A DNA stretch of 44,238 bases from a virus: IMG/VR virus record IMGVR_UViG_3300009159_000114, positions 1-44,238 of that record; one strand, written 5' to 3'. The notes under the pieces are model-generated. The model did no database searches. It was not told the origin of the DNA and saw only the letters and a list, made by a program, of their open reading frames with translations. Below are positions 2,684-44,238 of the stretch, piece after piece. The position numbers and the translations under genes were made by a program. Each line of letters starts with the position of its first letter. Position 1 is the first letter of the stretch.

Positions 2684-2686
2684 CAC

Positions 2687-3203: not shown

Positions 3204-3213
3204 GTTTTATGAT

Positions 3214-3223: not shown

Positions 3224-3226
3224 CAT

Positions 3227-3532
3227 ATGAAAATAATAATAACCGAAGACCAAGATAAACAAATTCTTTCATTTATTCGAAGACTTAGTATTGCCGATAA
3301 CATTATTTCTAGATTAAACCCTGAAGATGTTTGCAGAATATGGTCGAACACAGAAAAGGATGCATTATATTATGCTGATGAGGTTATTTTGGGAATTGTG
3401 TGGGATATTAATCAAACACTTGGGATTAAAAATTCATATCACAATAAAGATATGTATAAATTTTTTGAGGATTATGGTTATTACGATAAACTAAAAAAAT
3501 TTTTTCACAAATCATTTGAATCATGCGAATAA
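3227..3532 (+). CDS. MKIIITEDQ-tagged helical module protein, 101 aa
   Basis: After MKIIITEDQDKQ the protein carries FIRRLSIADNIISRL, then PEDVCRIW, a middle helix with YYADEVILGIVWDI, and an acidic end finishing in CE. This matches the array pattern of paired arginines, a PxxC-like turn, an I/V-rich middle helix and a terminal cysteine. It overlaps the next gene by 10 bases, so the two are probably translationally coupled. Confidence 0.85.
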   Translation: MKIIITEDQDKQILSFIRRLSIADNIISRLNPEDVCRIWSNTEKDALYYADEVILGIVWDINQTLGIKNSYHNKDMYKFFEDYGYYDKLKKFFHKSFESCE

Positions 3533-3891
3533 TCATAACGGAATCCCAAAGTAAAATTCTATGGTTACGTAGGAGATTGAATGACCGTGAATTAATGGAT
3601 CACTTAAAGGATATTGTTATTGAAGGATTTGATTATACCGATCCTTGTAACTACGGAACTTATGATAGTTATAGAATTAATATCGTAAATGATTCCGCAA
3701 TAACATTTATTAATTCATATACTGAACTTTCTGGTGAAGAACAATTATTTTCTGACGAACTTGTGGCTTTTGTTGTTAAGGTAATTGTTAGTAAATATTG
3801 GTCACGAATTGAACGAGAATATAGGGATCGTGATTGTGATGAAGAAGAAGAAGAGGATGATGATAAAACGGAGTGGTGGGTTGATAAATAA
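3523..3891 (+). CDS. MRIIITESQ-tagged helical module protein, 122 aa
   Basis: The start ATG 3523 lies inside the previous gene. The leader MRIIITESQSKILWLRRRL is followed by TDPCNYGTYDSY, the PC-Y signature of the array, then an I/V-rich helix and FVVKVIVSKYWSRIEREY. The C-terminus is strongly acidic (CDEEEEEDDD) and then ends WWVDK. It is the last gene of a two-gene unit. Confidence 0.85.
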   Translation: MRIIITESQSKILWLRRRLNDRELMDHLKDIVIEGFDYTDPCNYGTYDSYRINIVNDSAITFINSYTELSGEEQLFSDELVAFVVKVIVSKYWSRIEREYRDRDCDEEEEEDDDKTEWWVDK

Positions 3892-3931
3892 AAAATATTT
3901 ATAATATAATCAAATATTATTATTTATTGTT

Positions 3932-3941
3932 GTATTTATAA
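3932..3941 (+). promoter_or_regulatory. Putative late promoter element GTATTTATAA
   Basis: It lies 13 bases before the ATG at 3955, with the flank ATAAAATATATATT similar to that at 1565. No hairpin terminator is visible between 3891 and this element. Confidence 0.5.
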
Positions 3942-3954
3942 TAAAATATATATT

Positions 3955-4254
3955 ATGAAAAAAACCATAAGATTAACTGAATCAGATTTATCAAAACTAA
4001 TAAAACGAATTATACAAGAGAGTAACGTAAACGAGGAATTTAGAGGAGGTCTAGCAAGATCAAAAAAGACTGAATTGGTTGATGATGTAATAAATCGTTT
4101 GATTGAATTTGGTGAAGAATATGAAACTAAATTAAGAGAGTTTAATAGTGGTTTTGAAGTTACAAAAATAAAAAGATTAGAACCACCAAGATCAATGGAT
4201 GATATTGAGATACCAAAAGGAGTTAAAATAAGGAGTACGTCGTTTGGATATTAA
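3955..4254 (+). CDS. Tagged small protein, 99 aa
   Basis: The leader MKKTIRLTESDLSKLIKR followed by IIQES is one of the cleanest long-form leaders, with L-T-E and I-Q-E. The remaining ~75 residues are charged, helical at first (DDVINRLIEFGEEYETKLREF) and then extended with proline (EPPRSMDDIEIPKG). It stands alone between a promoter element and a terminator. No domain is recognised. Confidence 0.85.
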   Translation: MKKTIRLTESDLSKLIKRIIQESNVNEEFRGGLARSKKTELVDDVINRLIEFGEEYETKLREFNSGFEVTKIKRLEPPRSMDDIEIPKGVKIRSTSFGY

Positions 4255-4281
4255 TAAACCCTTAAATTTTTTATTGTATGT

Positions 4282-4307
4282 AAGACCACCTTTGGGTGGT
4301 CTTTTTG
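4282..4307 (+). terminator. Rho-independent terminator
   Basis: AAGACCACC pairs with GGTGGTCTT around TTTG (9 bp), followed by a T tract. Confidence 0.9.
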
Positions 4308-4316
4308 TTTTATAAA

Positions 4317-4325
4317 GTATTTATA
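4317..4325 (+). promoter_or_regulatory. Putative late promoter element GTATTTATA
   Basis: It lies 4 bases before the ATG at 4330 and right after a terminator; it heads the gene run that continues to about 5389. Confidence 0.6.
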
Positions 4326-4329
4326 CAAT

Positions 4330-4758
4330 ATGAAAATCATTATAACAAAAAAACAACTAAATATATTAAAAGAATCAAGAATTCACGGTTTAGATCATTT
4401 ATATGATTCTTTAATTTTAAAGTTAAAAGAAATAGAATATATTCCTGGTGAAAATCTTGGATATAATGTTATTAGACGGATAGGTAAGTACTTCCAAGAT
4501 AAAGATCTTATACACGAAATACTAATTAAATCAATATATGACTATATTAATGACCCTGAGATTAAACGTTGGATTGACTGTAAGGAAATGAGTTTTGATG
4601 TTATTTTAGATATTAGTGACAAAATTCTTTACTATTATGAGGATGATTGGAACGCCGACAACGGTACAGAAGAATTGGCAGATATATTTGATCAAATACG
4701 TGATTTTTTATATGTAAAATATGGTGAAATAATTAATGATTTTTGTAAAAATATTTGA
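4330..4758 (+). CDS. MKIIITKKQ-tagged helical protein, 142 aa
   Basis: The leader is a variant: MKIIITKKQLNILKES, in which the E after IIT is K but L-K-E follows. The body is helical and longer than its neighbours, with YDSLILKLKEIEYIPGENLG and a C-terminal FDQIRDFLYVKYGEIINDFC that matches the array's closing helix and cysteine. It may be a diverged member or a 1.5-module version. The next gene starts 2 bases after its stop. Confidence 0.85.
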   Translation: MKIIITKKQLNILKESRIHGLDHLYDSLILKLKEIEYIPGENLGYNVIRRIGKYFQDKDLIHEILIKSIYDYINDPEIKRWIDCKEMSFDVILDISDKILYYYEDDWNADNGTEELADIFDQIRDFLYVKYGEIINDFCKNI

Positions 4759-4760
4759 GT

Positions 4761-5078
4761 ATGAAAATTATAATAACAGAAAATCAAAATTCATTAGCAA
4801 GACGGTACCTAAAAATAATAGATGAGGTATATAATCGTATGGATGAATCTAGTCCTTGTTATTATAGGGATTACCATGAGTTTGACAAATACAAAAGAGA
4901 CTTAATAAGATCCGCAATTGATAATGTGGTAGAAGAAGATAGATTGGAAATTAATCCAAGATTGTGGACAAATTTAAGAAATGAACTTCTTTATATTTTA
5001 AATGATGAAATAAAAAAGTTTTATGATAAATATATTAAAGAAAATTGTCCAGAATATAATGATTCTGATTATCAATAA
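4761..5078 (+). CDS. MKIIITENQ-tagged helical module protein, 105 aa
   Basis: The start is ATG 4761, not the in-frame TTG at 4755. After the leader comes ARRYLKIIDEVYNRMDE, then SSPCYYRDYHEFDKYKRD (the PC-Y signature), a middle helix with LIRSAIDNVV, and a closing IKKFYDKYIKENC. Its stop overlaps the next start by one base (TAATG). Confidence 0.85.
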   Translation: MKIIITENQNSLARRYLKIIDEVYNRMDESSPCYYRDYHEFDKYKRDLIRSAIDNVVEEDRLEINPRLWTNLRNELLYILNDEIKKFYDKYIKENCPEYNDSDYQ

Positions 5079-5389
5079 TGAAAATAATAATAACTGAATC
5101 ACAATATAATTACATAAAAAGGAGGTATTTGGACATACTTCCAATCTTTGAACGAGAACTTAAGGATCAAGTTCCAGCATGGTATAACAATAAATTTGGA
5201 AAAAACGAAGGGTTTGAACGTTATTACGTCACCGTAAAAGATTCGGTTGTAGAATTTATTATGTACGATATCCCAAATTTTTATGATCTTGATGAGGAAA
5301 ATGAGATTGAAATTAGTAAAAAACTATCAAAAGAGTTTGATTTAATATTTTTTGATGAGACTAAAAGATATTATGAAGAAAACAGGTAA
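5078..5389 (+). CDS. MKIIITESQ-tagged helical module protein, 103 aa
   Basis: After MKIIITESQYNY the protein reads KRRYLDILPIFERELKDQVP, then WYNNKFG in place of the PC-Y turn, a VVEFIMYDIPNFYDL middle helix and a closing FDETKRYYEENR. It keeps the module pattern but has lost the cysteines. Translation is coupled to the upstream gene by TAATG. Confidence 0.85.
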   Translation: MKIIITESQYNYIKRRYLDILPIFERELKDQVPAWYNNKFGKNEGFERYYVTVKDSVVEFIMYDIPNFYDLDEENEIEISKKLSKEFDLIFFDETKRYYEENR

Positions 5390-5434
5390 TGGTTACCCTT
5401 GGTAAAAAGACGGGTTAATTTTTGATCTTGTGTT

Positions 5435-5443
5435 ATATTTATC
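5435..5443 (+). promoter_or_regulatory. Putative late promoter element ATATTTATC
   Basis: It lies 4 bases before the ATG at 5448 in a 58-base gap. A weak hairpin (TTACCC with GGGTTAA, near 5393-5418) precedes it and may be a poor terminator. Confidence 0.5.
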
Positions 5444-5447
5444 TAAT

Positions 5448-5783
5448 ATGAAAATTATCATAACTGAATCACAATTTGAGGATCTTTTTTTTAAACGTAG
5501 GTTTGGTCGTATTGATAAACTTGTTGATGAAAAAATGGAGTATTATCCCCCTTGTGATTATACGTATGATCCATTTTATGCGTGGTATGATTACTATGGT
5601 GATGTTCGTAACGCAGTCATATACGAGATGATTGAAAAAGATATAAATTTACCTTGGTCAGAAGAAAATATGGTTAATATTGATGAATTATCTGAAACTA
5701 TGAATGAATGGATGTATGAACCATTCTATGATAAGGTTAGGGAATATTATGATAAGGTTTTAGAGGATGAAGATTGTATATGA
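5448..5783 (+). CDS. MKIIITESQ-tagged helical module protein, 111 aa
   Basis: The start ATG 5448 follows the promoter element; an in-frame codon at 5430 overlaps it and is rejected. The module is clear: KRRFGRIDKLVDEKMEY, PPCDYTYDPFYAWYDYY, VRNAVIYEMIEKDI, and a closing FYDKVREYYDKVLEDEDC. The stop overlaps the next gene's start (ATGA). Confidence 0.85.
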   Translation: MKIIITESQFEDLFFKRRFGRIDKLVDEKMEYYPPCDYTYDPFYAWYDYYGDVRNAVIYEMIEKDINLPWSEENMVNIDELSETMNEWMYEPFYDKVREYYDKVLEDEDCI

Positions 5784-6523
5784 AAATAATTATTACAGAG
5801 GATCAGTACGGACAATTAACAGAAATGATTAAACTTGACATCAAGGTTGGTGATACAATCATGGGAGGTAAGTTTAAAAATAAGAAGGTTGTTGTTAAAA
5901 CTATTGGTAAAAATGATAAAGGAGATATTACAATTAATGGTAAACCATTATTACGATTTAGAATTATAAAAGAAAATAATGAATCTAATAAAGATAATAA
6001 CATACCATCAGCTTTACGTAGAAGAATTAATTTATTTGACCATGAATTAAATACAACATTAAGAGAATCGGATCCTTGTGAGTACTCAAGATTCTCTCAA
6101 TATAAAAGAGGAATTATGAATTACACCTTAACACCTTTTTTATCTGATGAAAATATAAGTTTGGATTCCGATGAAAATTTTTTTGAAATAAGAGATTATC
6201 TATTAAAAATTTTTGAAAATAAAATAAGGTTACATTACGATGCTTATAGTGAAATTCATTGTCCTGACGACCCTGAAATTGTAACTGAATCAAAACCATT
6301 AAAATTTATTAGAAGATACCAAGAACTTAAAGATTGGGTTAGTTCTGACTATGGTTATTTATTGGATCAGGGTAAATCACCATATGAGGCAAGAGAGATA
6401 ACAATAGATCATTCCCCAATGACGTACTTGGATGACCCTGACACACAACTTGAGTGGACAGATAAAAATTTGGATATGTTAAGACGATTCATTGAAAATA
6501 ATTTTGAAGATTTAATTAGTTAA
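5780..6523 (+). CDS. MKIIITEDQ-tagged protein: small beta domain plus helical module, 247 aa
   Basis: The start ATG 5780 overlaps the upstream stop by 4 bases. Residues about 15-60 form a short beta domain of KOW/SH3-like character (KVGDTIMGGKFKNKKVVVKT, then GDITINGKPLLRFRI). Residues about 72-155 are an array module (LRRRINLFDHELNTTLRES, DPCEYSRFSQYKRG, closing IRLHYDAYSEIHC). The last ~90 residues start with KFIRRYQELKDW and may be a decayed second module. It is the most composite member of the array. Confidence 0.85.
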   Translation: MKIIITEDQYGQLTEMIKLDIKVGDTIMGGKFKNKKVVVKTIGKNDKGDITINGKPLLRFRIIKENNESNKDNNIPSALRRRINLFDHELNTTLRESDPCEYSRFSQYKRGIMNYTLTPFLSDENISLDSDENFFEIRDYLLKIFENKIRLHYDAYSEIHCPDDPEIVTESKPLKFIRRYQELKDWVSSDYGYLLDQGKSPYEAREITIDHSPMTYLDDPDTQLEWTDKNLDMLRRFIENNFEDLIS

Positions 6524-6524
6524 T

Positions 6525-6872
6525 ATGAAAATAATAATAACAGAAACACAGAGTAAAACACTTCTTAAAAGATTAAGAAGGATACAGGAAGTTAGAGATA
6601 CTATAGAATATCAAATGGAAGTTCAAGACCCTTGTAATTTTGAGGATGGTGATGAGTACGCCGAGTTTTGTATTGAAGAAGGACTTAGGTTCTTTTATGG
6701 TGATGAAGACTATGAGAGAGAGGATGATATCTTTGCTGATGAGGATGAGAATGAAGATAGTGGTAGAGAAGAGATTACACAATTAATGAACGGTGAGTAC
6801 TACGATGAGTTAGTTTCATTGTGGGAAGAATGGAGTGACGATTGTGACGATGATGATGAAGATGATTTTTAA
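6525..6872 (+). CDS. MKIIITETQ-tagged acidic module protein, 115 aa
   Basis: After MKIIITETQSKTLLKRLRRI the module reads RDTIEYQMEVQDPCNFEDGD. The second half is dominated by Asp and Glu (EDDIFADEDENEDSG) and ends CDDDDEDDF. Its stop is followed after 16 bases by the next start. The extreme negative charge is shared with the 3523, 6889 and 21722 products. Confidence 0.85.
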   Translation: MKIIITETQSKTLLKRLRRIQEVRDTIEYQMEVQDPCNFEDGDEYAEFCIEEGLRFFYGDEDYEREDDIFADEDENEDSGREEITQLMNGEYYDELVSLWEEWSDDCDDDDEDDF

Positions 6873-6888
6873 TATTAAATAAGTTAAA

Positions 6889-7563
<675 letters not shown>

Positions 7564-7564
7564 G

Positions 7565-8167
7565 ATGAAAGTAATAATAACAGAAAATCAACATAAGTTT
7601 ATTAGGCGATATCAAGAAATTGAGGATGGTATTCAGGATTTTATACTAACCCATAAATTAAATGTTATGGACACCTTTGATGGTTTTTTAACTGAAATTT
7701 GTTGGGATGTTGCTCAAGATGTTGTTAGTAAAATGAATATACCTGAAGAAGATTATGTTACGTATAGAAATCAATTAATACGTTTCATAAAAAATAATTT
7801 CTACGAGGAATTAAAAGAGTTTTGGGATAGAAATAATTATTGGGCTGACAGTAAAAACATTAATGAGTCTTACGATAAAATAATCATTCAAAGACGATAT
7901 CAACAAATTAGTGAGTTTATTGATAGAGCTCTTTCACGTTATGATGTTTGTTTATATACTGATGTAATTGATTTTGTGGATCGTGTGATGGATTACACCG
8001 CTGATAATTTATATGAATCTTTATTTAATTACAATTGGGATGATGGAGATGAGTTTTATCAACCTATGTATGATTTTATTTCTGAACACTTTGTAGATAG
8101 AATCCATGAATTCTATGAGGATAGTAAACATTATTGTATAGATGAGGATGGTAATTGGATACATTAA
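7565..8167 (+). CDS. MKVIITENQ-tagged protein with two helical modules, 200 aa
   Basis: The start is 2 bases after the preceding stop. Module one starts FIRRYQEIEDGIQDFI and module two starts IQRRYQQISEFIDRALSRYD with VCLYTDVIDFVDRV. Each has the I/V-rich middle helix and an acidic-aromatic closing helix (EFYEDSKHYC at the C-terminus). It is the last gene of the run before a new promoter element. Confidence 0.85.
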   Translation: MKVIITENQHKFIRRYQEIEDGIQDFILTHKLNVMDTFDGFLTEICWDVAQDVVSKMNIPEEDYVTYRNQLIRFIKNNFYEELKEFWDRNNYWADSKNINESYDKIIIQRRYQQISEFIDRALSRYDVCLYTDVIDFVDRVMDYTADNLYESLFNYNWDDGDEFYQPMYDFISEHFVDRIHEFYEDSKHYCIDEDGNWIH

Positions 8168-8168
8168 T

Positions 8169-8178
8169 ATATTTATAA
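8169..8178 (+). promoter_or_regulatory. Putative late promoter element ATATTTATAA
   Basis: It lies directly after the 7565 stop and 10 bases before the ATG at 8189. Confidence 0.6.
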
Positions 8179-8188
8179 TAAAAAACAC

Positions 8189-8917
8189 ATGAAAAAAACT
8201 ACAATTATATCTGAAGAAGAAAAAAAACGCATAATTTCATTACATTCAAAATTATTAAATGAGGATATTGAATTTTTAACTAAAATGAAAACTCTTTTTT
8301 ACGCTTTAATGCCAAAACGTAAAAAGACTGTGGACGATATGATAAAAAAATTGGAGGATATATTTAACAAGGGAGACAAATCTGTTGAGGATATAATTGA
8401 TGATGTTCCAGAATTAAATGATCCAGAAGTAAAAGATAAAATATCAAATATTGATTTAAGTGGTATTAAAATAACAGAACCAAGTATTTCGGATAAAGAA
8501 TTCTATGAAAAAGTATTAAAAGGGATTGGTGCTCCTGTTACACCTCAAAATATGTTATTTTTTTATTCTTGGAGACAAGCCGAGGGAGCCAAAGCAACCT
8601 TTAATCCATTTAATACTACAAAAAAAATGGAAAAACAATCTTATTGGAATTGTTTAAAAAAGAAAAATGGTAAATGTGTTGGTGGAGTAAAAAATTATAG
8701 TTCCAAAGAAGATGGTATTACAGCAACAATAGAAACATTAAATAATGGAAGATACGAATGTATTGTTGATGGATTAAAAAATAATATCGGAGCAAAAAAA
8801 ATTGCTCAGTGTTCCAGTTTAAAAACTTGGGGAACAGGTGAATTAGTTAGTAAAGTTTTAAATGGTTCAAGTATAAAACCACCAGAAATATCAAGAACAT
8901 TAGTAAAAAAAGTATAA
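8189..8917 (+). CDS. Tagged lysozyme-like muralytic protein, 242 aa
   Basis: The leader reads MKKTTIISEEEKKRIISLHS then KLLNEDI, the SExxRIxxLH form with L-N-E. A basic helical linker follows. From about residue 115 the sequence matches the phage lysozyme/transglycosylase-like pattern with an AEG near the start, FNPFNTT, GVKNYSSKEDGI and ATIETLNNGRYECIVDGL. In other phages this domain occurs in tail- or virion-associated wall-degrading proteins. The leader suggests packing in the virion rather than use as the lysis endolysin. Domain assignment is from remembered motifs, not a search. Confidence 0.75.
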   Translation: MKKTTIISEEEKKRIISLHSKLLNEDIEFLTKMKTLFYALMPKRKKTVDDMIKKLEDIFNKGDKSVEDIIDDVPELNDPEVKDKISNIDLSGIKITEPSISDKEFYEKVLKGIGAPVTPQNMLFFYSWRQAEGAKATFNPFNTTKKMEKQSYWNCLKKKNGKCVGGVKNYSSKEDGITATIETLNNGRYECIVDGLKNNIGAKKIAQCSSLKTWGTGELVSKVLNGSSIKPPEISRTLVKKV

Positions 8918-8927
8918 CCATATTTTA

Positions 8928-9254
8928 ATGAGATTAACAACTAAAAATTTAAAAAAGATTATTAACAAAGTAGTTAATGAATCAATGTATGTTAAAAGAA
9001 GATCAGGTGAAATTGAGTTATGTTTTGAAGCTGCATTAGACTCAGTTGATCCAATGGGTTATGATGACGAATTTGAATATATAAGTGATGTGATAGAAGA
9101 AACGACAAAAGATTTTTTAGATCTTTCAGATGATATCCAACGATTTTCTGATGAATGGTACGAACTTTTTGACGAAGTATCTTATTTTATTAGAGGTCAT
9201 TTATATTATAAAATTCAGGACCATTACGATACGGTAAGATCCGAAGAAAATTAA
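8928..9254 (+). CDS. Tagged helical module protein, 108 aa
   Basis: The leader MRLTTKNLKKIINKVVNES is a long-form variant with V-N-E. After it the body follows the array module: KRRSGEIELCFEAALDSVDP, a DEFEYISDVIEET middle and a closing FIRGHLYYKIQDHYDTV. It joins a long-form leader to the module otherwise found with MKIIITESQ, so leader and body recombine independently. It follows the lysozyme-like gene by 10 bases. Confidence 0.8.
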   Translation: MRLTTKNLKKIINKVVNESMYVKRRSGEIELCFEAALDSVDPMGYDDEFEYISDVIEETTKDFLDLSDDIQRFSDEWYELFDEVSYFIRGHLYYKIQDHYDTVRSEEN

Positions 9255-21721: not shown

Positions 21722-22561
21722 ATGGCACAATATTTTTTTAAGATGACAAATGAGGAGAAAAACAATATCCTTAACCAACATAAAACAATTTATGATGGAT
21801 ATGTCACAGAATATGGACAACAAACTAATAAACAACCCTTATATGTTCAGGACTATGCAAACGATAAAGTTGGTTTGGTGGTTTCTAATAAAGGAGTTGT
21901 AAAACCATATACCAATATGGGAATTAATGAATCTCACACAGGTTTAGATATGATTGGTGGTGATCAACACGACCAAAGTGAATATAAATATAGACATTTA
22001 AAAAATGGAACTGTTGATTTAGACGATTATGGGTTCAATTCTGATAATAAAGAATATCCATCACCAAATGAAGAAGAATTTGATTATATCTCATTAGGTA
22101 ATACTAACGATGATGATGATGATTATGATGATTATGCTGATGAAGATTATGACGATAAGTTTGATAAAGAATCTCAAGAAATTAAAAGAATAGAAAGAGA
22201 ATTAGGTAATATTAACGATGATGATGATGATAGTGTAGATGATTTTAAAAACCGAAGTATGTATAATCCATACTATGGTGATGAAGAAGAAGACGAATTG
22301 GAAGAAGGTTTTGATGATTTCAAAATTATGGATTTAAGGGGTGGTGTAGATTATAGTAAAAAAGAATTCCCTAAATCAAACAAATATAAGGTCAATATGT
22401 CTGACATTAATCGTGGGGATACTATTGACACTTTTGATGATGGTAATTTTAATAATCTTGATTTTGATTTTGAAGAGGTTGATGAGGATGTACTTCCAGA
22501 ATTTATGGAAAAATTACACGAATCAATAGATATGTTTCGAAGATTTAAAAAATATAATTAA
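21722..22561 (+). CDS. Tagged, very acidic protein, 279 aa
   Basis: The N-terminus MAQYFFKMTNEEKNNILNQH continues to GYVTEYG, a leader variant with V-T-E. The centre is dominated by Asp/Glu, including DDDDDYDDYADEDYDD, and is likely disordered. The C-terminus PEFMEKLHESIDMFRRFKKY resembles the C-terminal tag of the 41664 product. Highly acidic internal proteins could balance positive charge or mimic DNA, but there is no direct evidence. Confidence 0.8.
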   Translation: MAQYFFKMTNEEKNNILNQHKTIYDGYVTEYGQQTNKQPLYVQDYANDKVGLVVSNKGVVKPYTNMGINESHTGLDMIGGDQHDQSEYKYRHLKNGTVDLDDYGFNSDNKEYPSPNEEEFDYISLGNTNDDDDDYDDYADEDYDDKFDKESQEIKRIERELGNINDDDDDSVDDFKNRSMYNPYYGDEEEDELEEGFDDFKIMDLRGGVDYSKKEFPKSNKYKVNMSDINRGDTIDTFDDGNFNNLDFDFEEVDEDVLPEFMEKLHESIDMFRRFKKYN

Positions 22562-24387: not shown

Positions 24388-25572
24388 ATGGAAAAATTAT
24401 TATTAGAGATAAATAGGTACAAACAACTAATGAATATTGTTTTGTTGACAGAAGGAGGTAAAGTTGTTGACGCATTTTTACCAATAGGGGCTAAGTCTGT
24501 TGATAATTTAACAAAACAAGGTGTTGATTTTGCAAACGACCTATCTAAATTATCCGATGAATTTACTAATCAAGGAATTAAAACTTTTGATGATTTACTT
24601 TCAGTTGTTGCAACAAAAAATCCCACTATACCTAATATAACTGACGATATGATTAAATCTTATATTAAAAATAATGAGAAATTATATAATTCTATTTTAG
24701 CTAAAGCGGCGGCAGCAGCGACGGTAGAAGCCGATATATTAGTAAAAAGTGTTGACTTAAAAAAAATATTCTCAAACAATATAGAACAGCTTAATGCTTA
24801 TAACACATATTTAAGTTATGCCCCTAGCATAAGAAATATTGATACATTAATAAAAGGTGTTGATGATAGTATTACAGAACTTAATAAAACAATTGATGAG
24901 ATACAAACTGGTAAGGTACCTGGAGTAACTACCGTTCCAAAGGATTTGGAGGAGTTATATGAACAATTATTAGGAAAAAAAGTAGAATTAACTGAATATA
25001 AAAATAAAGATGTATCCCCAGCCAAAGTTGTGGGCAATTTAAGTCCAGTTAAATGGGGTAATTTGGGTAATGGATTTATCATCTCAAATAAAATAACAAA
25101 CTATGGGGGTAGATATACTGTTATGGTAAAAGATCCTAATGGAAGATTACGACCATTTTACCAAAGAACCGGAGGTGGAACAAGAGTTGGAGATGCCCCT
25201 GAAGGTTGGGCAGCAGCAGGTAATTGGGTTCCTTTTTATGGTATGGCAGATGTAAGTATGTGGAGATTGAACAAAGAAACACAAAAATGGGGGTGGCAGA
25301 GAACTGATGGTTGGTTTATTAAACCTAAAGGTGGTAGACAGGGAGAAGAAGGTGATGAGGCAATTTCTAAGTTACTTGCCGATGTTGCAGGAACAAATGG
25401 GATTAAAGATGTTGATTACGGTTTTGGGAATTTATACAAGTCTATAACTAATACTGAAAGCGCTTCTGGTTTAAATACTTGGTTAAGAAATTTTGGGTAC
25501 GAAATAACCCCAGAAAACGGATATTTAAATGGTGCCGATCCTAATCGGATAATAGTACATGGAATACCATAA
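24388..25572 (+). CDS. Tagged protein with shared helical domain and variable C-terminus, 394 aa
   Basis: The leader MEKLLLEINRYKQLMNIVLL runs to TEGGK, with L-L-E and L-T-E. Residues about 25-210 are a helical domain about 75-80% identical by eye to that of the 29645 product (for example VDNLTKQGVDFANDLSKLSD is the same in both). After the shared KNKDV the two diverge. Here the C-terminal domain is rich in Gly, Trp and Arg (GWAAAGNWVPFYGMADVSMW, GRQGEEGDE) and ends in a WLRNFGYEI stretch. This layout suggests a common carrier with exchangeable ends. Confidence 0.85.
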   Translation: MEKLLLEINRYKQLMNIVLLTEGGKVVDAFLPIGAKSVDNLTKQGVDFANDLSKLSDEFTNQGIKTFDDLLSVVATKNPTIPNITDDMIKSYIKNNEKLYNSILAKAAAAATVEADILVKSVDLKKIFSNNIEQLNAYNTYLSYAPSIRNIDTLIKGVDDSITELNKTIDEIQTGKVPGVTTVPKDLEELYEQLLGKKVELTEYKNKDVSPAKVVGNLSPVKWGNLGNGFIISNKITNYGGRYTVMVKDPNGRLRPFYQRTGGGTRVGDAPEGWAAAGNWVPFYGMADVSMWRLNKETQKWGWQRTDGWFIKPKGGRQGEEGDEAISKLLADVAGTNGIKDVDYGFGNLYKSITNTESASGLNTWLRNFGYEITPENGYLNGADPNRIIVHGIP

Positions 25573-27441: not shown

Positions 27442-29565
27442 ATGGAAAAAAATATATTAATGGAATTAAGTAGAATAAAAGGTCTAATTAATTACAATTT
27501 ATCAAATGGGTTTTTAATTAAAGAGGATGCTCAAGGTGCGGAAATAAGACAGAGACAAATAGATAATGAAATACTTGGAACTAATAATATAAAAGGTGGG
27601 GGCGATACTGATTCAGAAAGATGGCCAACTATAACACTAAGTTCAACAAGTACGGAGTATCCAATAATTTTTGATTATCCAAATGGTCTACCAATTTTAG
27701 GTGATAAAGAAACTGGAAAACCAATAGTATGGCAATTTAAACCGGGAGATTCTTCAAAAACTTTTATATCAGAAAAACAATTTAAAGTATTAGTTGGTTC
27801 AGTTGAGGCTGCGGATAAAACAATTAAGGAAAATCAAGAGTATTTTGAAAAAAATGGAATAAAATATTGTTTACCCCAAAAATCATTTTGGGATTTACAC
27901 ACCAATAAAAACTACATTTATAAATTTCAAAACCCAAGAAATAATAAAATATTTAACATGAAACTAACTATGTTGGGTGAAGACCAATGTACTAATTCTG
28001 GTGACGAGATTCCTCGTAGTGGTCTTGAATGTTCTACAAGATGTATGGGGGCAAACAATGGATGGGCGTTTAGTATGGATGGTTTTTTTGAAACGGGAAC
28101 AGGAAAAGGATATGACCCACAAAATCCAGATCATTTTGATCTTAGATCTATAGATGATATATTTTGGGATAAATATAGTATTTGGATTGAAATTGCGGTT
28201 GGAGTTGCGGTTGCATTTGTGGCACCTTATTTGGCTGCGGGAATTTTAGGGGCTATGGCTACGCCAATTTTAGCAGCAACAAGAATTGCCAGACTCATAA
28301 CTTTTTTAGGGGAAGCATCAGTATATGGAGGAGAAACTACTTGGTTAATAATTTCTTGTGAAATTTTAGCGGAAGGAGGTCTATTGTCTCCTTTAATCTC
28401 TAATTATTTATCTAGAGGGGATAGTGGAAATGCAGCTTTAACAATTGCCATGTGTTTAATACCGTTTGTAACTGAACTACCTTCGGTCAAATTATTTATT
28501 GGTAAAGGTTTTGGAACTCCAAAAATGGGAGAAAGTGTGGTATCTAAAATAAATACTTGGGGCGGTTTTACTGCTTTAACCAAACTACCAAAAGAAGAAA
28601 TGCGATCAGTGATCAAAGCAATTCTTACTACAGATGAACAAACAATGTTTTATCTTGGAATGGATGTTATTGGTGCAGGAGATAAAGTGTTAGCTTCAGC
28701 CTTTGCGGAATTTATTGCAAAAAATGGAGATACAATAGAGGCGGGTATAGCCAGAGGAACTGGTAATGCTCCGATTGACACTGGATATAAAAAGTTTGTG
28801 GAAAAAATGGGTAGTACCAGTACTAAGGCATTAGAAATACTTGCCAATCCCCTTGGGTCAGCATTTTTTCAAAGAAGTTTTGTAACATCACTTGTAAGAG
28901 GTTTTATAGTTGTAGGTCCAATTGTAATAGCTTTTAAAGCTACTTGGGGAAAGGCGGCTGAATGGATGACAGAAACACAAAAAGATGATGTACTAAATAA
29001 AATACAAGACATTCTTAACGGTCATGGATCACCATATGCAAAGGCATTAATGGACTTAAACATATCATGTGGTTTAGGACGTGAAATTCCACAAGAGGTT
29101 GTTGATTTAGCAATAAAAAAGTTATCAGAAGACCCTACTTTTACAAAATTTGATGAGAATACTGAGGCATTAATTGAAGAAAAAACAAAAGAAGCAACAA
29201 AAGAAGTTTATGAACAAAAAATAAAAACCATTGCTGAACAACTTAAGAAAAACAACACAAATTCAACAGAAGATCTACAACGAATGGATTTGTTATCCGC
29301 TCAAACCCAATTAGAGGTATTGGATGAAATTATTATGAGTAGTGGGTATCCTACTTTACCTGATTGGGAAAACGATAAACCAACATCATATGATGAATGG
29401 AAATTTTCGGTAATTACAGGAGGTAAGGAAATAAATGGAGTTGTTAAATTTATTAACGGAAATAAAAATTACGAAGTTTATGTTGATACTAAAAAAATAT
29501 TTCCCACTGATGATATTAAATCTGACCCCGAAATAAAGTTTAATCCCAAAATAGGAAATAAATAA
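27442..29565 (+). CDS. Tagged large membrane-active protein, 707 aa
   Basis: The leader MEKNILMELSRIKGLINYNL continues to FLIKEDA, with I-K-E. The N-terminal ~240 residues are soluble with a few cysteines (CTNSGDEIPRSGLECSTRCM). Residues about 245-350 are hydrophobic (IEIAVGVAVAFVAPYLAAGI, then MATPILAATRIARLITFLGE and AALTIAMCLIPFVTEL), and another hydrophobic patch lies near 490 (GFIVVGPIVIAF). The C-terminal ~180 residues are soluble with a coiled coil. A hydrophobic centre flanked by soluble ends suggests a membrane-inserting, possibly ejected protein. No family is recognised. Confidence 0.85.
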   Translation: MEKNILMELSRIKGLINYNLSNGFLIKEDAQGAEIRQRQIDNEILGTNNIKGGGDTDSERWPTITLSSTSTEYPIIFDYPNGLPILGDKETGKPIVWQFKPGDSSKTFISEKQFKVLVGSVEAADKTIKENQEYFEKNGIKYCLPQKSFWDLHTNKNYIYKFQNPRNNKIFNMKLTMLGEDQCTNSGDEIPRSGLECSTRCMGANNGWAFSMDGFFETGTGKGYDPQNPDHFDLRSIDDIFWDKYSIWIEIAVGVAVAFVAPYLAAGILGAMATPILAATRIARLITFLGEASVYGGETTWLIISCEILAEGGLLSPLISNYLSRGDSGNAALTIAMCLIPFVTELPSVKLFIGKGFGTPKMGESVVSKINTWGGFTALTKLPKEEMRSVIKAILTTDEQTMFYLGMDVIGAGDKVLASAFAEFIAKNGDTIEAGIARGTGNAPIDTGYKKFVEKMGSTSTKALEILANPLGSAFFQRSFVTSLVRGFIVVGPIVIAFKATWGKAAEWMTETQKDDVLNKIQDILNGHGSPYAKALMDLNISCGLGREIPQEVVDLAIKKLSEDPTFTKFDENTEALIEEKTKEATKEVYEQKIKTIAEQLKKNNTNSTEDLQRMDLLSAQTQLEVLDEIIMSSGYPTLPDWENDKPTSYDEWKFSVITGGKEINGVVKFINGNKNYEVYVDTKKIFPTDDIKSDPEIKFNPKIGNK

Positions 29566-29644: not shown

Positions 29645-31132
29645 ATGAGTAATAAATTAATTTTAGAAGAGTTATTTCGAATGAGAGAAATAATGGGTAT
29701 ATCATTATCTGAAACAATCAAAAATAAAATTAATAGTGTTTTATTGTTAGAAGGTGGTAAGATTGTTGATGAATTTATACCAATAGCTCCTAAGTCTGTT
29801 GATAATTTAACAAAACAAGGTGTTGATTTTGCAAACGACCTATCTAAATTATCTGATGAATTCACTAATCAGGGAATTAAAACTTTTGATGATTTGACCG
29901 CAGCGGTTGCAGCAAAAAATCCCACTATAGATCCTAAGAACATAACTGACGATATGATTAAATCATATATTAAAAATGACGATAAATTATATAAGTCTAT
30001 TTTAGCTAAAGCAGCGTCAGCGGCGGCAGCAGAAGCTGATATATTAGTAAAAAATGCCGATGTAACTGCTCTATTCAGAGCAGATCCTGCACAACTTGCA
30101 AACGCTCAAAGATTATTAGGTGCCAGTCCTTCCGTAAGAACTATTGATACCTTAATACAAGGTGTTGATGATAGTATTGTAAGTATTGAAAAAACAATTG
30201 ATGATATAAATGTTGGTAATGTTCCTGGAGTGAGAACCGTTCCAAAGGATTTAGATGATTTATATGAACAATTATTGGCAAAAAAATTAGATTTAGAAAA
30301 CTATAAAAATAAAGATGTGGCGCCAGAACCAGTTAAATTTCCGGATCCATTACCTTCTATTGGTGATGAAGCGGCACAGAAAGTAATACAGAATTCCGAA
30401 TCAAAAATAGACGATGTATTTGATGCCTTAGTTGGCAATGCAAAGATGAAAAAATTATACGCACCAGGTTTAACAGATGAACAAATTGAGCTTACCAGAA
30501 CGTTTATAAAGGCCAAATATGGTGATGTAGCAATAGAACAGTTACTTAAAAACTTAAATCAAGTGCAAGAGGATATGATAAAAGACTTACAAAGACAAGT
30601 AAACAGCTTACCAACAGGAGCAAAAGGTACACCTACAAATCCAGCTCTTAAGAAAAAGGCGGGTGCTGTTCTTGAGTTTTTATATGATAATAAGATAACG
30701 AGAGCTTGTCTTGGTAGCGACAAAGCAGTGGTTAATCCAACTCTAAAACTAAGTTGGAAAACACCCCTTACAGGACTTCTTTGTGTTTACAGTGTTGTAG
30801 TATCATATAAGATGCTCGAATGGGTAAACACTCCCGCAATCGAACAAGATCCAATCTTTTGTCCCCTTCTTACTCCACTTGGAGCTTGTAAATTCATGAC
30901 ATCAAAGGGTTGGTGTGTAAAATCATGTAGTGAAAGTGAAGATAAAGAATGGTTTCCTAATGTATACGAAAATAAATTTGACCCTGATTTTAAAAAATGG
31001 GTCACAGACAATGGGTTTACAAACCCCGATTTAAATATTGATGATGCCGGAGTTGAAACTTTTCTTTATAACGATAAAGAAAATAATCGACAGGAGGCAA
31101 CATATGATGGAGGTAAAAAGACATTTAACTAA
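29645..31132 (+). CDS. Tagged protein with shared helical domain and membrane/Cys C-terminus, 495 aa
   Basis: The leader MSNKLILEELFRMREIMGIS is of the MEKLLLEI type. A second boundary, LLLEGGKIVDEF, matches LLTEGGKVVDAF of the 24388 product and opens the shared helical domain. After KNKDVAP the sequence diverges: a helical part (QIELTRTFIKAKYGDVAIEQ), a single hydrophobic segment (PLTGLLCVYSVVVSYKMLEW) and a Cys-rich, acidic end with FKKWVTDNGFTNPD. The latter recalls short peptidoglycan- or PG-binding-like repeats, but weakly. Confidence 0.85.
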   Translation: MSNKLILEELFRMREIMGISLSETIKNKINSVLLLEGGKIVDEFIPIAPKSVDNLTKQGVDFANDLSKLSDEFTNQGIKTFDDLTAAVAAKNPTIDPKNITDDMIKSYIKNDDKLYKSILAKAASAAAAEADILVKNADVTALFRADPAQLANAQRLLGASPSVRTIDTLIQGVDDSIVSIEKTIDDINVGNVPGVRTVPKDLDDLYEQLLAKKLDLENYKNKDVAPEPVKFPDPLPSIGDEAAQKVIQNSESKIDDVFDALVGNAKMKKLYAPGLTDEQIELTRTFIKAKYGDVAIEQLLKNLNQVQEDMIKDLQRQVNSLPTGAKGTPTNPALKKKAGAVLEFLYDNKITRACLGSDKAVVNPTLKLSWKTPLTGLLCVYSVVVSYKMLEWVNTPAIEQDPIFCPLLTPLGACKFMTSKGWCVKSCSESEDKEWFPNVYENKFDPDFKKWVTDNGFTNPDLNIDDAGVETFLYNDKENNRQEATYDGGKKTFN

Positions 31133-31167: not shown

Positions 31168-33597
31168 ATGGGAACTATAACTTATTGCGGAAAAGATGGG
31201 TCCGGAAAATGGATTAATATAAACAAAGCAACTTATGATGCAAAAAAGAAAAATAAATTACCCGTAAAAATTGCCGATAAAGATAAAAATTGTGATGGAA
31301 CCCCATTAGTAGTTGTTGCAAAAAAATACAAGTGTGTTAGTGGGGTATGTAAAGAAGATCCAACAGGAACATATACGGAACCTACTTGTCAAGGAAAGTG
31401 TACAACAACTGCAAAAAAATACAAGTGTGTTAGTGGAGAATGTAAAGAAGATCCAACAGGAACATATACAGAACCTACTTGTCAAGGAAAATGTTCAACG
31501 CCAACACCAGGACCAGGACCAGGTCCAAGTCCAAAGTCATGTAGTTCTCCTTCAACACCGTTTAGTTCTGTATCTGACAGTACTAAATTTAGAGATTTTG
31601 TTTATAAATATTACCCATCAGTTGCTGGTCAACATGATTTATGGTTATCAACTGACCCAAGATTATTAACCTTAACAAAACAATGGAATACTTGTTCAGT
31701 TAGAAAGTCATATTCAGAAATAGACCAAAAGGATCCTAATAAAAGATCTATTGGTAATTTATTTTTATTGTGGTCACAAGATCCTAACGCTTTGACTTGG
31801 ATAAGTGGAAGTAATCCACAACAAAACATGGATGACCCTAAAGTTCAAATGGGAGTATGGGAAAAATTAATAGAAAACAAACAGATATGGACTAAAGGTC
31901 TTATTGTTAATGTTGGAAACAAAAAAGTTTATGTGATAAAAACAGATATTAATAATGATACATCAAAATATCCATTAACTATTGCGGAGTTAAGATCTCC
32001 TGATATGACAAAATTTGATTATTTAGTTTTATATCCAATTGATATGACAAAAAAATATCCTATAGGTAATATAGGTATATTATATATGTCAACAAATCAA
32101 GATGGTGAATCAGTTGTTAGAATTAAACAAGAACCAACTTGGACTTGGGAACCTGCAACAATAGAAGATGAATTAAACTTTGAATTACAAGAACAAATTA
32201 TTACTAAAGGAAACAGAAATTCAAATCAAGGGACTAATACTCCTGGTACAATTAATAGAGGATCAAATTCAAGTAATTCATTAAATTTAAGTAATGGGGC
32301 AACTCCAAGAGAAATTTTTGATGTTATTGAACCGATTAGAACCGAAGCATTGAATATTTTAATTGAGTTAAAACCTACGGCAGATAAAGTTGGAGCCGGA
32401 AAAGAAATGGATGAGGCAATAACATTATTACAGACTTTTGATTCGTCAAAATCATGTGAAGCAGGTAACATACAACAAATTAAAGATGCAAAAGATAAAA
32501 TCCAAAAAATTAAAAAAGATAACTCCTTAGCATTATCTATGGCTGGAGGTATTACCAAAAAATTAGATAGATTAACTGTATTATTAGATAATGTAATTAC
32601 CGAATGTGATCGATTAAGTAAAATACCAAAAAATAAGGTAGATGATAAGGTAGATGATAAAAATAAAACAGAATTAAATAATAATATGGGGACACCAAAA
32701 ACTAAAGATGAATTAAGAGTATTCTTTGGTTTTGTCACAAATGACGGTATAACATACAATCCAAAATCCAAAATTCTAAACATGGAAAAAGAGGAAGGAA
32801 TTGTTGGTGAATTTGATCAAGGTACCGTACAAAACGCAATTAATAAATTTGGCGCTAGATCTGAATATTTCCACAAATATAATGAATTGATGGCAATGGA
32901 AGGATTAAGTAGTAGTAGGTTAGTGTTACCAGAAGGAGTTGTGGGTGCAGGTGAGGTAATTACAGAAAATAATTATTCGGTTTTAGTACCACTTAAAAGT
33001 AATGAAAGTAGTAGACAATTTAAAAAACTTACATTCGGAACATATTTAGATACCACTTGTCCATCAGCAACAATTGAGGTAATGTTTGGTAAAGGATCAG
33101 TTCAAAAAAGTGTTGGGTGTTCTTGTGATGAGAGTGCGGAATCAATAATTGAAAAATTAAAAACATATTTAATTGCTGCATTAACTGGTGACGAAAGTTC
33201 TAGACCAAATAGAGAAGGAGCAGCAAAAGAATTTTGTGGGTGTTTTAAAACTGGTAAGTTTGATGAACTTATTGGTATTAATGGACTTAAATTAGATGCT
33301 TCCTCATTAACTGGTGTAAGTAAAACAAGATTACCTAAAACATTTTTTGATCGTAAATTAGGTTGGAAAGAAATTACTAATTTATTAAGAGGAGAGAGGG
33401 TTAATGGAACACAAATTGCTGGTCCATTTCGTATACCTGATTTTGGTGATGATAATTGTAGATGTATTGGAAGTGGTTCATTACAAGAATCTATTAAAAG
33501 ACATGTAACAAAAGCAATAAATAATAAAAAAACAGTTCTTAAAGAAGAAAGAATTATTAAATCAATTTTATCAAAAATAAGAAAAGTAGGTAAATAA
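31168..33597 (+). CDS. Large modular Cys-rich protein, possible C-terminal tag, 809 aa
   Basis: The N-terminus (MGTITYCGKDGSGKWININK) is not a leader. A 31-residue Cys repeat occurs twice (AKKYKCVSGVCKEDPTGTYT, then EPTCQGKC), followed by a PGPGPGPSP linker and a domain starting FRDFVYKYYPSVAGQHD. The centre has a helical part near residue 400 and an FGFVTNDGITYN region. The C-terminal 45 residues read SLQESIKRHVTKAINNKKTV then LKEERIIKSILSKIRK, which look like a tag moved to the C-terminus, with L-Q-E and L-K-E. Function is unknown; a virion structural or adhesive role is possible. Confidence 0.85.
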   Translation: MGTITYCGKDGSGKWININKATYDAKKKNKLPVKIADKDKNCDGTPLVVVAKKYKCVSGVCKEDPTGTYTEPTCQGKCTTTAKKYKCVSGECKEDPTGTYTEPTCQGKCSTPTPGPGPGPSPKSCSSPSTPFSSVSDSTKFRDFVYKYYPSVAGQHDLWLSTDPRLLTLTKQWNTCSVRKSYSEIDQKDPNKRSIGNLFLLWSQDPNALTWISGSNPQQNMDDPKVQMGVWEKLIENKQIWTKGLIVNVGNKKVYVIKTDINNDTSKYPLTIAELRSPDMTKFDYLVLYPIDMTKKYPIGNIGILYMSTNQDGESVVRIKQEPTWTWEPATIEDELNFELQEQIITKGNRNSNQGTNTPGTINRGSNSSNSLNLSNGATPREIFDVIEPIRTEALNILIELKPTADKVGAGKEMDEAITLLQTFDSSKSCEAGNIQQIKDAKDKIQKIKKDNSLALSMAGGITKKLDRLTVLLDNVITECDRLSKIPKNKVDDKVDDKNKTELNNNMGTPKTKDELRVFFGFVTNDGITYNPKSKILNMEKEEGIVGEFDQGTVQNAINKFGARSEYFHKYNELMAMEGLSSSRLVLPEGVVGAGEVITENNYSVLVPLKSNESSRQFKKLTFGTYLDTTCPSATIEVMFGKGSVQKSVGCSCDESAESIIEKLKTYLIAALTGDESSRPNREGAAKEFCGCFKTGKFDELIGINGLKLDASSLTGVSKTRLPKTFFDRKLGWKEITNLLRGERVNGTQIAGPFRIPDFGDDNCRCIGSGSLQESIKRHVTKAINNKKTVLKEERIIKSILSKIRKVGK
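31318..31494 (+). repeat. 93-bp tandem repeat, two copies (second truncated)
   Basis: Copies start at 31318 and 31411 and differ by only a few bases, encoding AKKYKCVSG(V/E)CKEDPT and the rest of the Cys unit. The near identity indicates a recent duplication. Confidence 0.9.
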
Positions 33598-37061: not shown

Positions 37062-37529
37062 ATGGAACTTATTGAGGAAATATATAGAATAAAATCATTG
37101 TTATCTGAAAACTCTGACCCATATAAAATTTGGGTGGCGAGTAATCTTGAAAGTGATCGAGGATATTGTGTTTATTATTTAACAGAAAATAATAGTGTTA
37201 TTGGTTCTGTAACAATAACAGATTTAAATAAAATGTTAAATAATGAAGATTTTAATGATGATGACAAACTTTTACATACTAATTATGGAAATTTATCAAA
37301 TACCGCATATGCACATACTATTGTTGTTGAAGAACAATTTAGACGATTAGGGTATGGTTTAAAATTATTTAAAGAATGTGAAAATATCGCTAAACATTCA
37401 GGTTATGATAGGATTTCAATAATTATTAAAAAAAATAATATACCATCTCAAAATATGTTTAAAAAGATTGGATTCAAACAACATTATTCCGAAGGTAATA
37501 AAGATTTGTTTATTTTAGAACTTGACTGA
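37062..37529 (+). CDS. Tagged GNAT-family N-acetyltransferase, 155 aa
   Basis: The leader MELIEEIYRIKSLLSENS has L-S-E and is strikingly like the C-terminus of the 41664 product (NEEIYRIKDLM). The GNAT fold is clear: HTIVVEEQFRRLGYGLKLFK at about residues 86-105 carries the acetyl-CoA pyrophosphate-binding R-R-x-G-x-G, and NNIPSQNMFKKIGFKQH gives the closing N-x-x-S-x-x-x-F-x-K-x-G-F. It transfers acetyl groups from acetyl-CoA to an amine on a small molecule or protein. The tag suggests it is packed in the virion and delivered with the DNA. Confidence 0.9.
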   Translation: MELIEEIYRIKSLLSENSDPYKIWVASNLESDRGYCVYYLTENNSVIGSVTITDLNKMLNNEDFNDDDKLLHTNYGNLSNTAYAHTIVVEEQFRRLGYGLKLFKECENIAKHSGYDRISIIIKKNNIPSQNMFKKIGFKQHYSEGNKDLFILELD

Positions 37530-41663: not shown

Positions 41664-43649
41664 ATGAACTTAATTTATCCGTTATCAATAAAAGGTAGAA
41701 AAACATCTGGATTTGGTCCTAGATGGGGAAAAAATCATAATGGTATTGACATTGGTGTCCCTGATGGGACAGGTGTTAATTCTGTTGCAGATGGTGAAGT
41801 AGTCAGGGCAGATATGCGAGACTATAAAGGTTACGGTAATTTTATAATTGTTAAACATGACTTAGATGGTGAAACTTTTTATTCCGCATATGCCCATTTA
41901 ACTAAAATGTTGGTAAGTGTTGGTGATAAAGTTAAACAAGGAGATCAAATTGCATTATCTGGTGGTGGACAAGGTTTATCAAAAGGTTCCGGTAAGTCAA
42001 CTGGACCACATTTACATTTTGAAATTAGAAAAAGTCAAAATGGTAATTGGGTTAATCCAGAATCATATATTAGTGGTAAAGAAATTGTAAAAGGAAGTTT
42101 AAATAAAACTCAAGATGATAATGAAGTACCTGATAATGAAGTACCCGATAAAAGTACAATAAGTAATTTGGTTGTCACATACAACAATTTGACAGGTAAA
42201 TCAAAAGACATTGCCGATACCGTTGTATCTCAATTAAAAAAAATAGGGATTACTAACCCATACACCATTATAGTAATATGTTCAATATTAATAAAAAAAT
42301 ATGGAACTATAACCGAAAGTTTTATATTAGGTAAGAATAAAATTAAAATTCCAAGAGATGGTGCCCACAAGGGACAATCAGGTTGGCAGAGTAACAATGC
42401 TTGGGATATTGCAGTCCCAATTGGAACTCCGGTATACGCAGTTAATTCAGGTACTGTCGTTACTTTTACAAATCATGGTCCAAATATTATAAGGAAAAAT
42501 GGTAAAAAAATATTTGGGACTGGATTTACAGTTAAAACTGATAATAAATTACCAAGTGTTTTTTATACTCATTTAAAAGATACCACAATTTCAAAAGGAT
42601 CTAAAATTTCTTGCGGACAATTGTTAGGATATGTGATGGATTTTCCTGGTAGTTCATATGATCACCTACATATTGGAGTTGAAAAGGGTAATATTAGACA
42701 ATTTATTACTGATGATGGAACATTAAAATGTAAATCAAACTATTCAAAAAATGACGAGGATGAAACCCCGACAAAATCTGAAGGTAATACATTACCACCA
42801 CAGATTCAAAAGTTAATGGATAAATTAAAAACAGTTTATGGGATTAACATTACTCAAAAACATATTGATGCTGAATTTAAACAAGAAGGAAATATTAGAC
42901 CAGATAATGGTGGTGTTGATTCGCAAGCAAAGAAAAAAATTGATGAATTAATAAAGGACTGTAAATTGGCAAACCCCATACAATATCCAGATGACATTGT
43001 GTCGGGATATAGAAGTTATAATGACCAAGTAGATAATTTTGGATCCAAAGCCAAAAAAAGAGGTATTGAAAACACACAAGCTTCAAACTGTTTACCTGGA
43101 TTTAGCCAACATCACACAGGTAAAACTTTTGATATATTTAGTACTGATACTAGTTGGTGGGATAAAAACTCAAAGGTTAAAAAATGGGTTGCCGATAATT
43201 GTGAAAATTATGGGTTTGAGGTAACTTATAAATCCAAAGGATCATTGAGAATTGCGGAACCTTGGCACTTATATTATACTGGTGGTGGCACCAAAAATAA
43301 CAACGATGTTTTATTGTTACTAAAAAAAGATCTAGAACTATTAACCAATAATAAAGAAACTATAAATAATTTTAAAACTTTGGATGAATGTATAAAATAT
43401 TATTCATCTATAGAATTATCTGACGGATCTACACTATCAAAAGATTCAATTACAGAAGTGGCAAAACAATTTAGGGTTGAGGTTGGAACGAAAAACACTA
43501 ACGACATAGATATAAAATCATTTTTAAAAACTATTTTAAGTCTCCCTGTACTTGGAGCTGAAATTAGAAAAGAAAGAGGTCTTTCCGAAAATACTCAATT
43601 AAATGAGGAAATTTATAGAATAAAAGACTTAATGAAAAAAATTATTTAA
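41664..43649 (+). CDS. Peptidoglycan peptidase with M23, degenerate M23 and M15 domains and C-terminal tag, 661 aa
   Basis: Domain 1 (about residues 11-140) is M23/LytM with H25-x-x-x-D29 and GPHLHFE near 115. Domain 2 (about 225-350) is M23-like, but NNAWDIA replaces the first His of HxxxD with Asn, while DHLHIG is kept; it may bind without cutting. Domain 3 (about 410-540) is VanY/M15-like with SGYRSYNDQ, FSQHHTGKTFDIF and EPWHLYY. M23 enzymes cut peptide cross-bridges and M15 enzymes trim D-Ala ends. The C-terminus LSENTQLNEEIYRIKDLMKK repeats the GNAT leader, so the tag appears to be C-terminal here. Confidence 0.93.
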   Translation: MNLIYPLSIKGRKTSGFGPRWGKNHNGIDIGVPDGTGVNSVADGEVVRADMRDYKGYGNFIIVKHDLDGETFYSAYAHLTKMLVSVGDKVKQGDQIALSGGGQGLSKGSGKSTGPHLHFEIRKSQNGNWVNPESYISGKEIVKGSLNKTQDDNEVPDNEVPDKSTISNLVVTYNNLTGKSKDIADTVVSQLKKIGITNPYTIIVICSILIKKYGTITESFILGKNKIKIPRDGAHKGQSGWQSNNAWDIAVPIGTPVYAVNSGTVVTFTNHGPNIIRKNGKKIFGTGFTVKTDNKLPSVFYTHLKDTTISKGSKISCGQLLGYVMDFPGSSYDHLHIGVEKGNIRQFITDDGTLKCKSNYSKNDEDETPTKSEGNTLPPQIQKLMDKLKTVYGINITQKHIDAEFKQEGNIRPDNGGVDSQAKKKIDELIKDCKLANPIQYPDDIVSGYRSYNDQVDNFGSKAKKRGIENTQASNCLPGFSQHHTGKTFDIFSTDTSWWDKNSKVKKWVADNCENYGFEVTYKSKGSLRIAEPWHLYYTGGGTKNNNDVLLLLKKDLELLTNNKETINNFKTLDECIKYYSSIELSDGSTLSKDSITEVAKQFRVEVGTKNTNDIDIKSFLKTILSLPVLGAEIRKERGLSENTQLNEEIYRIKDLMKKII

Positions 43650-43939: not shown

Positions 43940-44238
43940 AAATCAGGAAAAGTCCTGAAAAGTTCTTTGAAAATTTAGATTATCCATTCAGAAGTAAGAA
44001 ATGAAACTGATAAAGATATTGGGCCGTGTATAGTCCATAAAATAAACTACGAAAGTAGGATAAAGTGAACCCCCAAGTGTAACGGGTTTGCGTCTTAATA
44101 GTCTTCGGAATATTGAGGTCGAGTACACAGGCGAGATACCATAAGATCTTTAGTACCGAGGCCAACGGTGTAGGGAAAGTGATTTTATGACGAGGTGATG
44201 TGGGTCATCTTGTTGAGGAGGGAACTCCAATAGGAATA
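43940..44238 (+). ncRNA. Large structured noncoding RNA, 3' end beyond the window
   Basis: About 300 bases lack a plausible coding frame and are less AT-rich than the flanks. Visible helices: TCAGGA-AAAG-TCCTGA at 43943; a long-range helix 44024-44030 with 44124-44131 enclosing three hairpins (CTAC-GAAA-GTAG at 44047; AACCC/GGGTT at 44068; a ~9-bp stem capped by C-UUCG-G at 44094-44117). Downstream are TACCG/CGGTG (44154-44170), ATGAC/GTCAT (44187-44208) and GGAG-GGAA-CTCC (44217-44228). GNRA and UUCG loops and the multibranch junction indicate selected structure. It could be an ornate phage RNA of the GOLLD/ROOL kind, or part of an intron; I do not recognise it. Confidence 0.75.

Follow-up and report, generated by a model that had tools for sequence, protein, structure and literature searches.

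The head-loading cargo signals that we found described are N-terminal. The capsid targeting sequences (CTSs) of the T4 internal proteins are N-terminal, and the T4 prohead protease gp21 cleaves at the motif L/I-x-E (PMC9026906). In phage P1, a short terminal signal of DarB, also N-terminal, suffices to carry a reporter into the head (PMC9024508). The gp21 protease also removes 63 C-terminal residues of T4 Alt at LTE, the role of which is an open question (PMC5694885), and for the prohead protease of SPN3US a C-terminal targeting propeptide, leading into the core, has been proposed (PMC7411985). A natural tag that is used at either end of a protein and has a sequence link to the scaffold makes the question of the T4 Alt propeptide testable.

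Here we analyzed a window of 44,238 nucleotides (positions 1 to 44,238 of the IMG/VR virus record IMGVR_UViG_3300009159_000114), which is a fragment of a T4-like phage, the host of which probably belongs to the Bacteroidota, judging from relatives. We suggest, with a probability of about 0.62, that the C-terminal tail of a peptidase encoded in the window is a prohead-loading tag, which would mimic the terminal helix of the scaffold and would be functional at either end of a protein. We infer both the head targeting and the removal of the tail from three features: the T4-type head genes that relatives carry, the motif shared with the scaffold C-terminus and the LxE-type sites.

Results

We detected that 32 of the 64 window ORFs start with a short leader. 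These leaders fall into four classes, namely A (IRLTESDLTRLVKRVIKE), B (MKIIITESQ), C (LEEIxRIKxLM) and D (ITESEKNRILSMH). A large share of the otherwise unannotated genes would therefore be delivered proteins. Class C leaders are present at the N-termini of the GNAT protein encoded at 37062-37529 (MELIEEIYRIKSLLSEN, 37062-37112), a 394-aa protein (MEKLLLEINRYKQLMNIVLLTE, 24388-24453, 27.1 bits), a 707-aa protein (MEKNILMELSRIKGLINYNLSNGFLIKED, 27442-27528, 24.8 bits) and a 495-aa protein (MSNKLILEELFRMREIMGISLSE, 29645-29713, 30.8 bits), all on the + strand. At 1588-9254, 17 small + strand genes stand in a row, 16 of them having an N-terminal leader of class A, B or D; many bodies encoded in this run look dissimilar and several are acidic.

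The peptidase ORF (41664-43649, + strand) encodes 661 aa with two M23 stretches (Pfam PF01551, 6.8e-41, 138.8 bits versus the curated cut-off of 28.7) and a VanY domain (PF02557, 5.1e-21, 75.3 bits versus the curated cut-off of 25). It has no N-terminal leader and ends in frame with RGLSENTQLNEEIYRIKDLMKKII, the class C tag LNEEIYRIKDLMKKII being at its C-terminus (residues 646-661, 43599-43646, + strand). The first-pass annotation had noticed that the last residues of the peptidase nearly repeat the GNAT leader and that LSE precedes them, and both observations hold: EEIYRIK is exact in both proteins, with 21 of 22 bases and 6 of 7 codons identical, and LSE is located at residues 640-642 (43581-43589, + strand), ahead of the tail that starts at residue 646. 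LSE separates body and tail and fits the T4 gp21 motif, so it is a candidate prohead-protease site; LNE (43599-43607, + strand) is a second candidate detected in the sequence. AlphaFold predicted residues 644-660 to be a helix with low confidence, the model of the whole peptidase being poor and below fold-search quality. We considered whether the GNAT leader had recently been copied at the DNA level into the peptidase; such an event is needless, because codon bias in this AT-rich genome can alone yield a match in 6 of 7 codons fairly often (about 0.1, an estimate).

The relatives of the peptidase were found at 16 IMG/VR loci, three of them near-identical; the remaining tailed relatives have about 34-45% identity over the shared domains, differing domain orders and unalignable linkers. 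In these distant relatives the tail, with the consensus KK[VI][NT]E[ND]I[ED][RK]IK[KR][LM]L, is the best conserved stretch beyond the catalytic domains and is located at the stop or a few residues from it; four residues (E648, I650, I653 and K654) do not vary among 11 aligned homologues. The first-pass annotation had named homologues without any such tail as evidence against a tag, and most homologues keep the tail. The single-M23 proteins L013 and L014 are without the tail but carry the N-terminal leader MKYIL[KT]ESQLLRLIK. In the M23 family, leader only (L013 and L014), tail only (the window peptidase) and both (most others) are represented, and a remote GC-rich M23 protein, L018, has neither leader nor tail. 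The scan of IMG/VR with the tail-plus-stop pattern gave matches only at the ends of cell-wall hydrolases, including an amidase protein with another catalytic domain. Leader-like stretches were additionally detected between M23 catalytic domains (L028:2362-4311 and L015:9911-11935, e.g., NIEKILELYKSILETSRLDE|VSSASDELFGG); by sequence, such proteins look as if they were polyproteins, in which each domain has its own tag.

The tail could also be a functionless leftover, namely a leader that once belonged to a downstream gene and was joined on through read-through or fusion. Such in-frame fusions do occur: in L181_7567 and L189_7109 a head-locus protein is fused in frame to a class-A-tagged protein encoded downstream, and the tag thus has a mid-protein position at the former start codon. 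A functionless remnant would be lost, whereas this tail is conserved better than anything else beyond the catalytic domains and lies near the stop, which makes a mere leftover very unlikely. The L181 and L189 fusions may represent one route by which C-terminal tails could arise, and read-through or fusion may have been the origin of a tail that retained its function.

A position-specific matrix was built solely from the N-terminal class C leaders of 12 contigs and scanned over all proteins with a threshold of at least 16 bits. In the 12 contigs, 16 matches were N-terminal, 8 were within the last 30 aa (counted as C-terminal) and 2 were internal. In 72 independent loci, gathered by the class A leader pattern, the same matrix gave 9 N-terminal, 7 C-terminal and 0 internal matches, the 7 C-terminal matches representing three proteins, some of which are present in several contigs. 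The peptidase tail scored 24.8 bits with this matrix, although it was trained on N-terminal leaders only. The core phi-x-[RK]-[IM]-K-x-L-phi had 34 matches in the last 20 residues of proteins, 23 in the first 40 residues and two among the 358,677 remaining positions (0.80, 0.25 and 0.006 per 1000 positions, respectively). The matrix result is the fairer test, because the core expression was drawn up after the tails had been seen.

When homologues were collapsed, the core was at the C-terminus in 7 families versus 0.43 in shuffles of the terminal residues (maximum 3 in 300), and at the N-terminus in 15 families versus 1.14. One of the 7 families is the scaffold and one is a 63-aa ORF, possibly no gene; the C-terminal matches come mostly from one hydrolase cluster and the scaffold, and only about four or five independent C-tailed cargo families remain under the strict core. 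The class C tag is a common peptide on several unrelated cargo proteins, as is expected of a T4-type CTS. Leaders of classes B and D were not detected by matrix at C-termini in the 12 contigs and 72 loci; the C-terminal helices are of class C, rarely of class A, and of no other class, and therefore end-independence is not general to all leaders. The short-peptide tblastn search gave no matches of the tags in cultured phages, the query being probably too short for this method.

That the tag is independent of the protein start, as had been claimed for the peptidase in the first reading of the window, is well supported at the sequence level by tails that are kept in distant homologues, occur on unrelated families and swap ends. 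The cleanest end-swap case is a family of 346-464 aa. Its members G005_53453 and L026_96 carry the class A leader MRVIKLTESDLIRLVKKVILTE (in L026, ..LVRLVKKVILTE) and the C-terminus QPSLFKL[ED]DMY, and G008_18383, L124_4787, L142_2698 and G001_23565 are leaderless and have a basic amphipathic helix beyond the common ELF; the tails of this family are ESVRRILKKLL, ENLIRKVKKLL, ESLVKRLKRIM and EEIKRIVGILK, and several members have neither leader nor tail. In a family of 226-242 aa adjoining the head genes, the proteins open with a short stretch up to [IL]xE|AT and have a class-A-like C-terminal helix (NEQLTDIIRRVIREN; SENQLESLVKSIVKEYLNKP); it is this C-terminal tag that runs on into a further tagged protein in L181 and L189. 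DUF5872 was rejected as the identity of this head-locus family: Pfam gave no match and PHROGs gave only phrog_23735, with function unknown.

Similar but weaker tails had been proposed for the 21722 and 31168 proteins, and only the former was substantiated. The 21722 protein bears a class D leader at its N-terminus in addition to the tail MEKLHESIDMFRRFKKYN (22505-22558, + strand), and the tail is kept in position in 9 homologues; these keep the class D leader and have [IV]xEM[MF]xR[MF]-like C-termini, in several cases EMMNRMK[VI][IL] (examples are ITEMFNRFSKYN, VMEMMNRMKIIK and ITEMMIRMKVLK). The basic amphipathic C-terminus of the 31168 protein (LQESIKRHVTKAINNKKTVLKEERIIKSILSKIRKVGK, 33481-33594, + strand) has no match to the class C core and recurs only in the close relative G001, which speaks neither for nor against the claim. 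The 31168 protein carries two near-identical 27-aa cysteine-rich repeats, KKYKCVSG[VE]CKEDPTGTYTEPTCQGKC, near the N-terminus (31321-31494).

The C-tailed cargo proteins are mostly peptidoglycan hydrolases (M23, VanY, amidase), and the tail could be a feature of cell-wall hydrolases, that is, a regulatory or oligomerising helix or a helix docking to the tail or baseplate of the phage; its likeness to the leaders would then be no more than general. We consider this quite unlikely, since the tail is also found on L163_4006, L124_729 and G006_271627, which have no hydrolase match, its relaxed forms occur in the 464-aa and 159-aa families, the scaffold bears it too and the core also opens unrelated proteins, including GNAT.

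No head genes are present within the window itself. The S77 prohead protease was detected in 8 relatives, including G001, which has 95% identity over the peptidase and is collinear with the window over the right half of the latter. Gp23, Portal_T4 and S77 were identified in G001, and its head genes are ordered as in T4, with the portal followed by two small proteins, the S77 protease, a 71-aa protein, the scaffold and Gp23. The S77 protease, core scaffold and Gp23 that accompany a T4-type CTS are therefore present in relatives (scaffold and Gp23 in G001 and others). The scaffold was named from its position between the protease and Gp23 and from its acidic composition, the family libraries giving no match.

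The scaffold C-terminus (YENPQFLRMKDLMSKI; IESKTYENPQFLRMKDLMSKIK) bears the class C core. This core is at the scaffold C-terminus in 79 of 82 cluster sequences, fragments counted, and across 80 head loci with 268,042 residues it was found solely at the scaffold end and in one leader; with the full leader matrix the scaffold tail reaches only 7.3 bits, despite the core match. AlphaFold predicted the last 13 scaffold residues to be a helix (pLDDT about 73) after a disordered linker, and the first 50 residues to be a helix as well; the N-terminal helix bears the class A core INQLVKESLSE|Q. The tag resembles the scaffold terminus, and the cargo is therefore suggested to occupy the docking place of the scaffold.

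The common core is silent on what either helix binds, and the helix could serve for docking of the prohead protease, or for self-association of the core, rather than mimic a shell-binding scaffold helix. The S77 protease bears its own C-terminal amphipathic helix (KSVDLMKKLNDFLGK), and T4 internal proteins were reported to be core-associated (PMC9026906). The data hold nothing decisive against such a partner, which we regard as unlikely; it would leave the targeting role as it is.

The cultured relative Flavobacterium phage immuto (L263) has T4-like head genes, but the tags are absent from it and its scaffold ends differently (VSRWQKLAGIIK), which fits, as one case, with the scaffold terminus and the tags going together. 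Scaffold tails also differ in the divergent rumen contig G016 and marine contig G014 (KTIDLMKKICKF, ITAIKDLMRKIS); G014 has one matching leader (LDRIKDLMGKMN) and G016 hardly any class C. The co-variation of tag and scaffold tail in divergent relatives is no more than suggestive. The immuto gp071, encoded just upstream of the protease, contains EHFIAEARMQ, which is like the T4 CTS FIAE|A.

At its right end (43945-44238), the window contains the 5' portion of a giant structured RNA, with a Bacteroidota-type promoter (TTGACAT..TATCTTTG) just upstream. In the relative G001 (L039, minus strand) this RNA runs on into GOLLD RNA (RF02032, E 8e-84), and a tmRNA (RF00023) is located past the GOLLD RNA on the opposite strand.

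Candidate cleavage sites agree with the gp21 motif L/I-x-E: LINE|A was detected in 53 of 53 Gp23 sequences, and the class A leaders have [LIV]xE|[QNS]. We detected [LIVM]xE at most 5 residues before the core in 17 of 24 cargo tails, many of them close homologues, versus a background of 8%; V-x-E in relatives departs from the strict L/I-x-E. The xE ahead of the helix is also present inside N-terminal class C leaders (INEDITRMKSLF), and for this reason it may be a helix cap and not a cut site. Judging from these motifs, the peptidase tail is likely cleaved at the candidate LSE|N or LNE|E. No virion proteome of a tagged phage was found in the literature searched.

Discussion

We propose that the amphipathic helix of the peptidase tail would dock at the site of the C-terminal helix of the gp22-like scaffold, on the core or the inner Gp23 shell. 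Docking would bring the peptidase into the prohead by its C-terminal end, as the N-terminal leaders would bring other cargo. The S77 (gp21-type) protease would probably cut between the body and the tag, at the xxE of LSE|N or LNE|E, and the peptidase freed inside the head would be ejected with the DNA. The binding partner, targeting, cleavage and ejection of the tailed peptidase are what we infer here.

More tentatively, and at somewhat less than even odds, head loading in these phages may follow one code of scaffold mimicry, in which class C would correspond to the scaffold C-terminus and class A to the scaffold N-terminal helix, class C would be read at either end and the protease would cut on the body side. 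If this is true, packaging of this kind would extend to dozens of proteins in each phage, including multi-domain polyproteins with inter-domain leaders. The tag allows sequence-based prediction of head cargo in a large uncultured phage group, with at least 575 scaffold-bearing stretches in IMG/VR.

In the part of the literature that was covered, we found no description of one tag at both cargo ends or of a tag resembling a scaffold terminus, which is not proof of novelty. The nearest precedent is the C-terminal propeptide of T4 Alt, which, like the tail here, is a C-terminal stretch on head cargo; it differs in its length of 63 residues and in its sequence, the comparison of the T4 Alt C-terminus with the peptidase tail giving no likeness. 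The propeptides of the prohead proteases (SPN3US gp245, T4 gp21 and phiKZ gp175) are C-terminal and removed by the protease, as proposed for the tail, but they are located on the protease itself and the tail is on cargo; the SPN3US propeptide has 64 residues. The P1 DarB signal is short and terminal, like the tag; unlike the tag, it is N-terminal and has no consensus among the Dar proteins, and P1 has no separate scaffold known.

The T4 CTSs (IPI-III and Alt) share with the tag a short peptide on functionally unrelated cargo, the S77 protease, scaffold and Gp23 and a candidate xxE cut. The T4 CTS is N-terminal, whereas the tag described here is also C-terminal and has a different sequence. In the peptidase it is C-terminal with the leader absent, and because of this position the tag is not classed as a T4 CTS, although it would work like one. 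Finally, FIAE|A of the T4 CTS is similar to LIAE|A at the gp22 N-terminus, while the class C tag is similar to the scaffold C-terminus.
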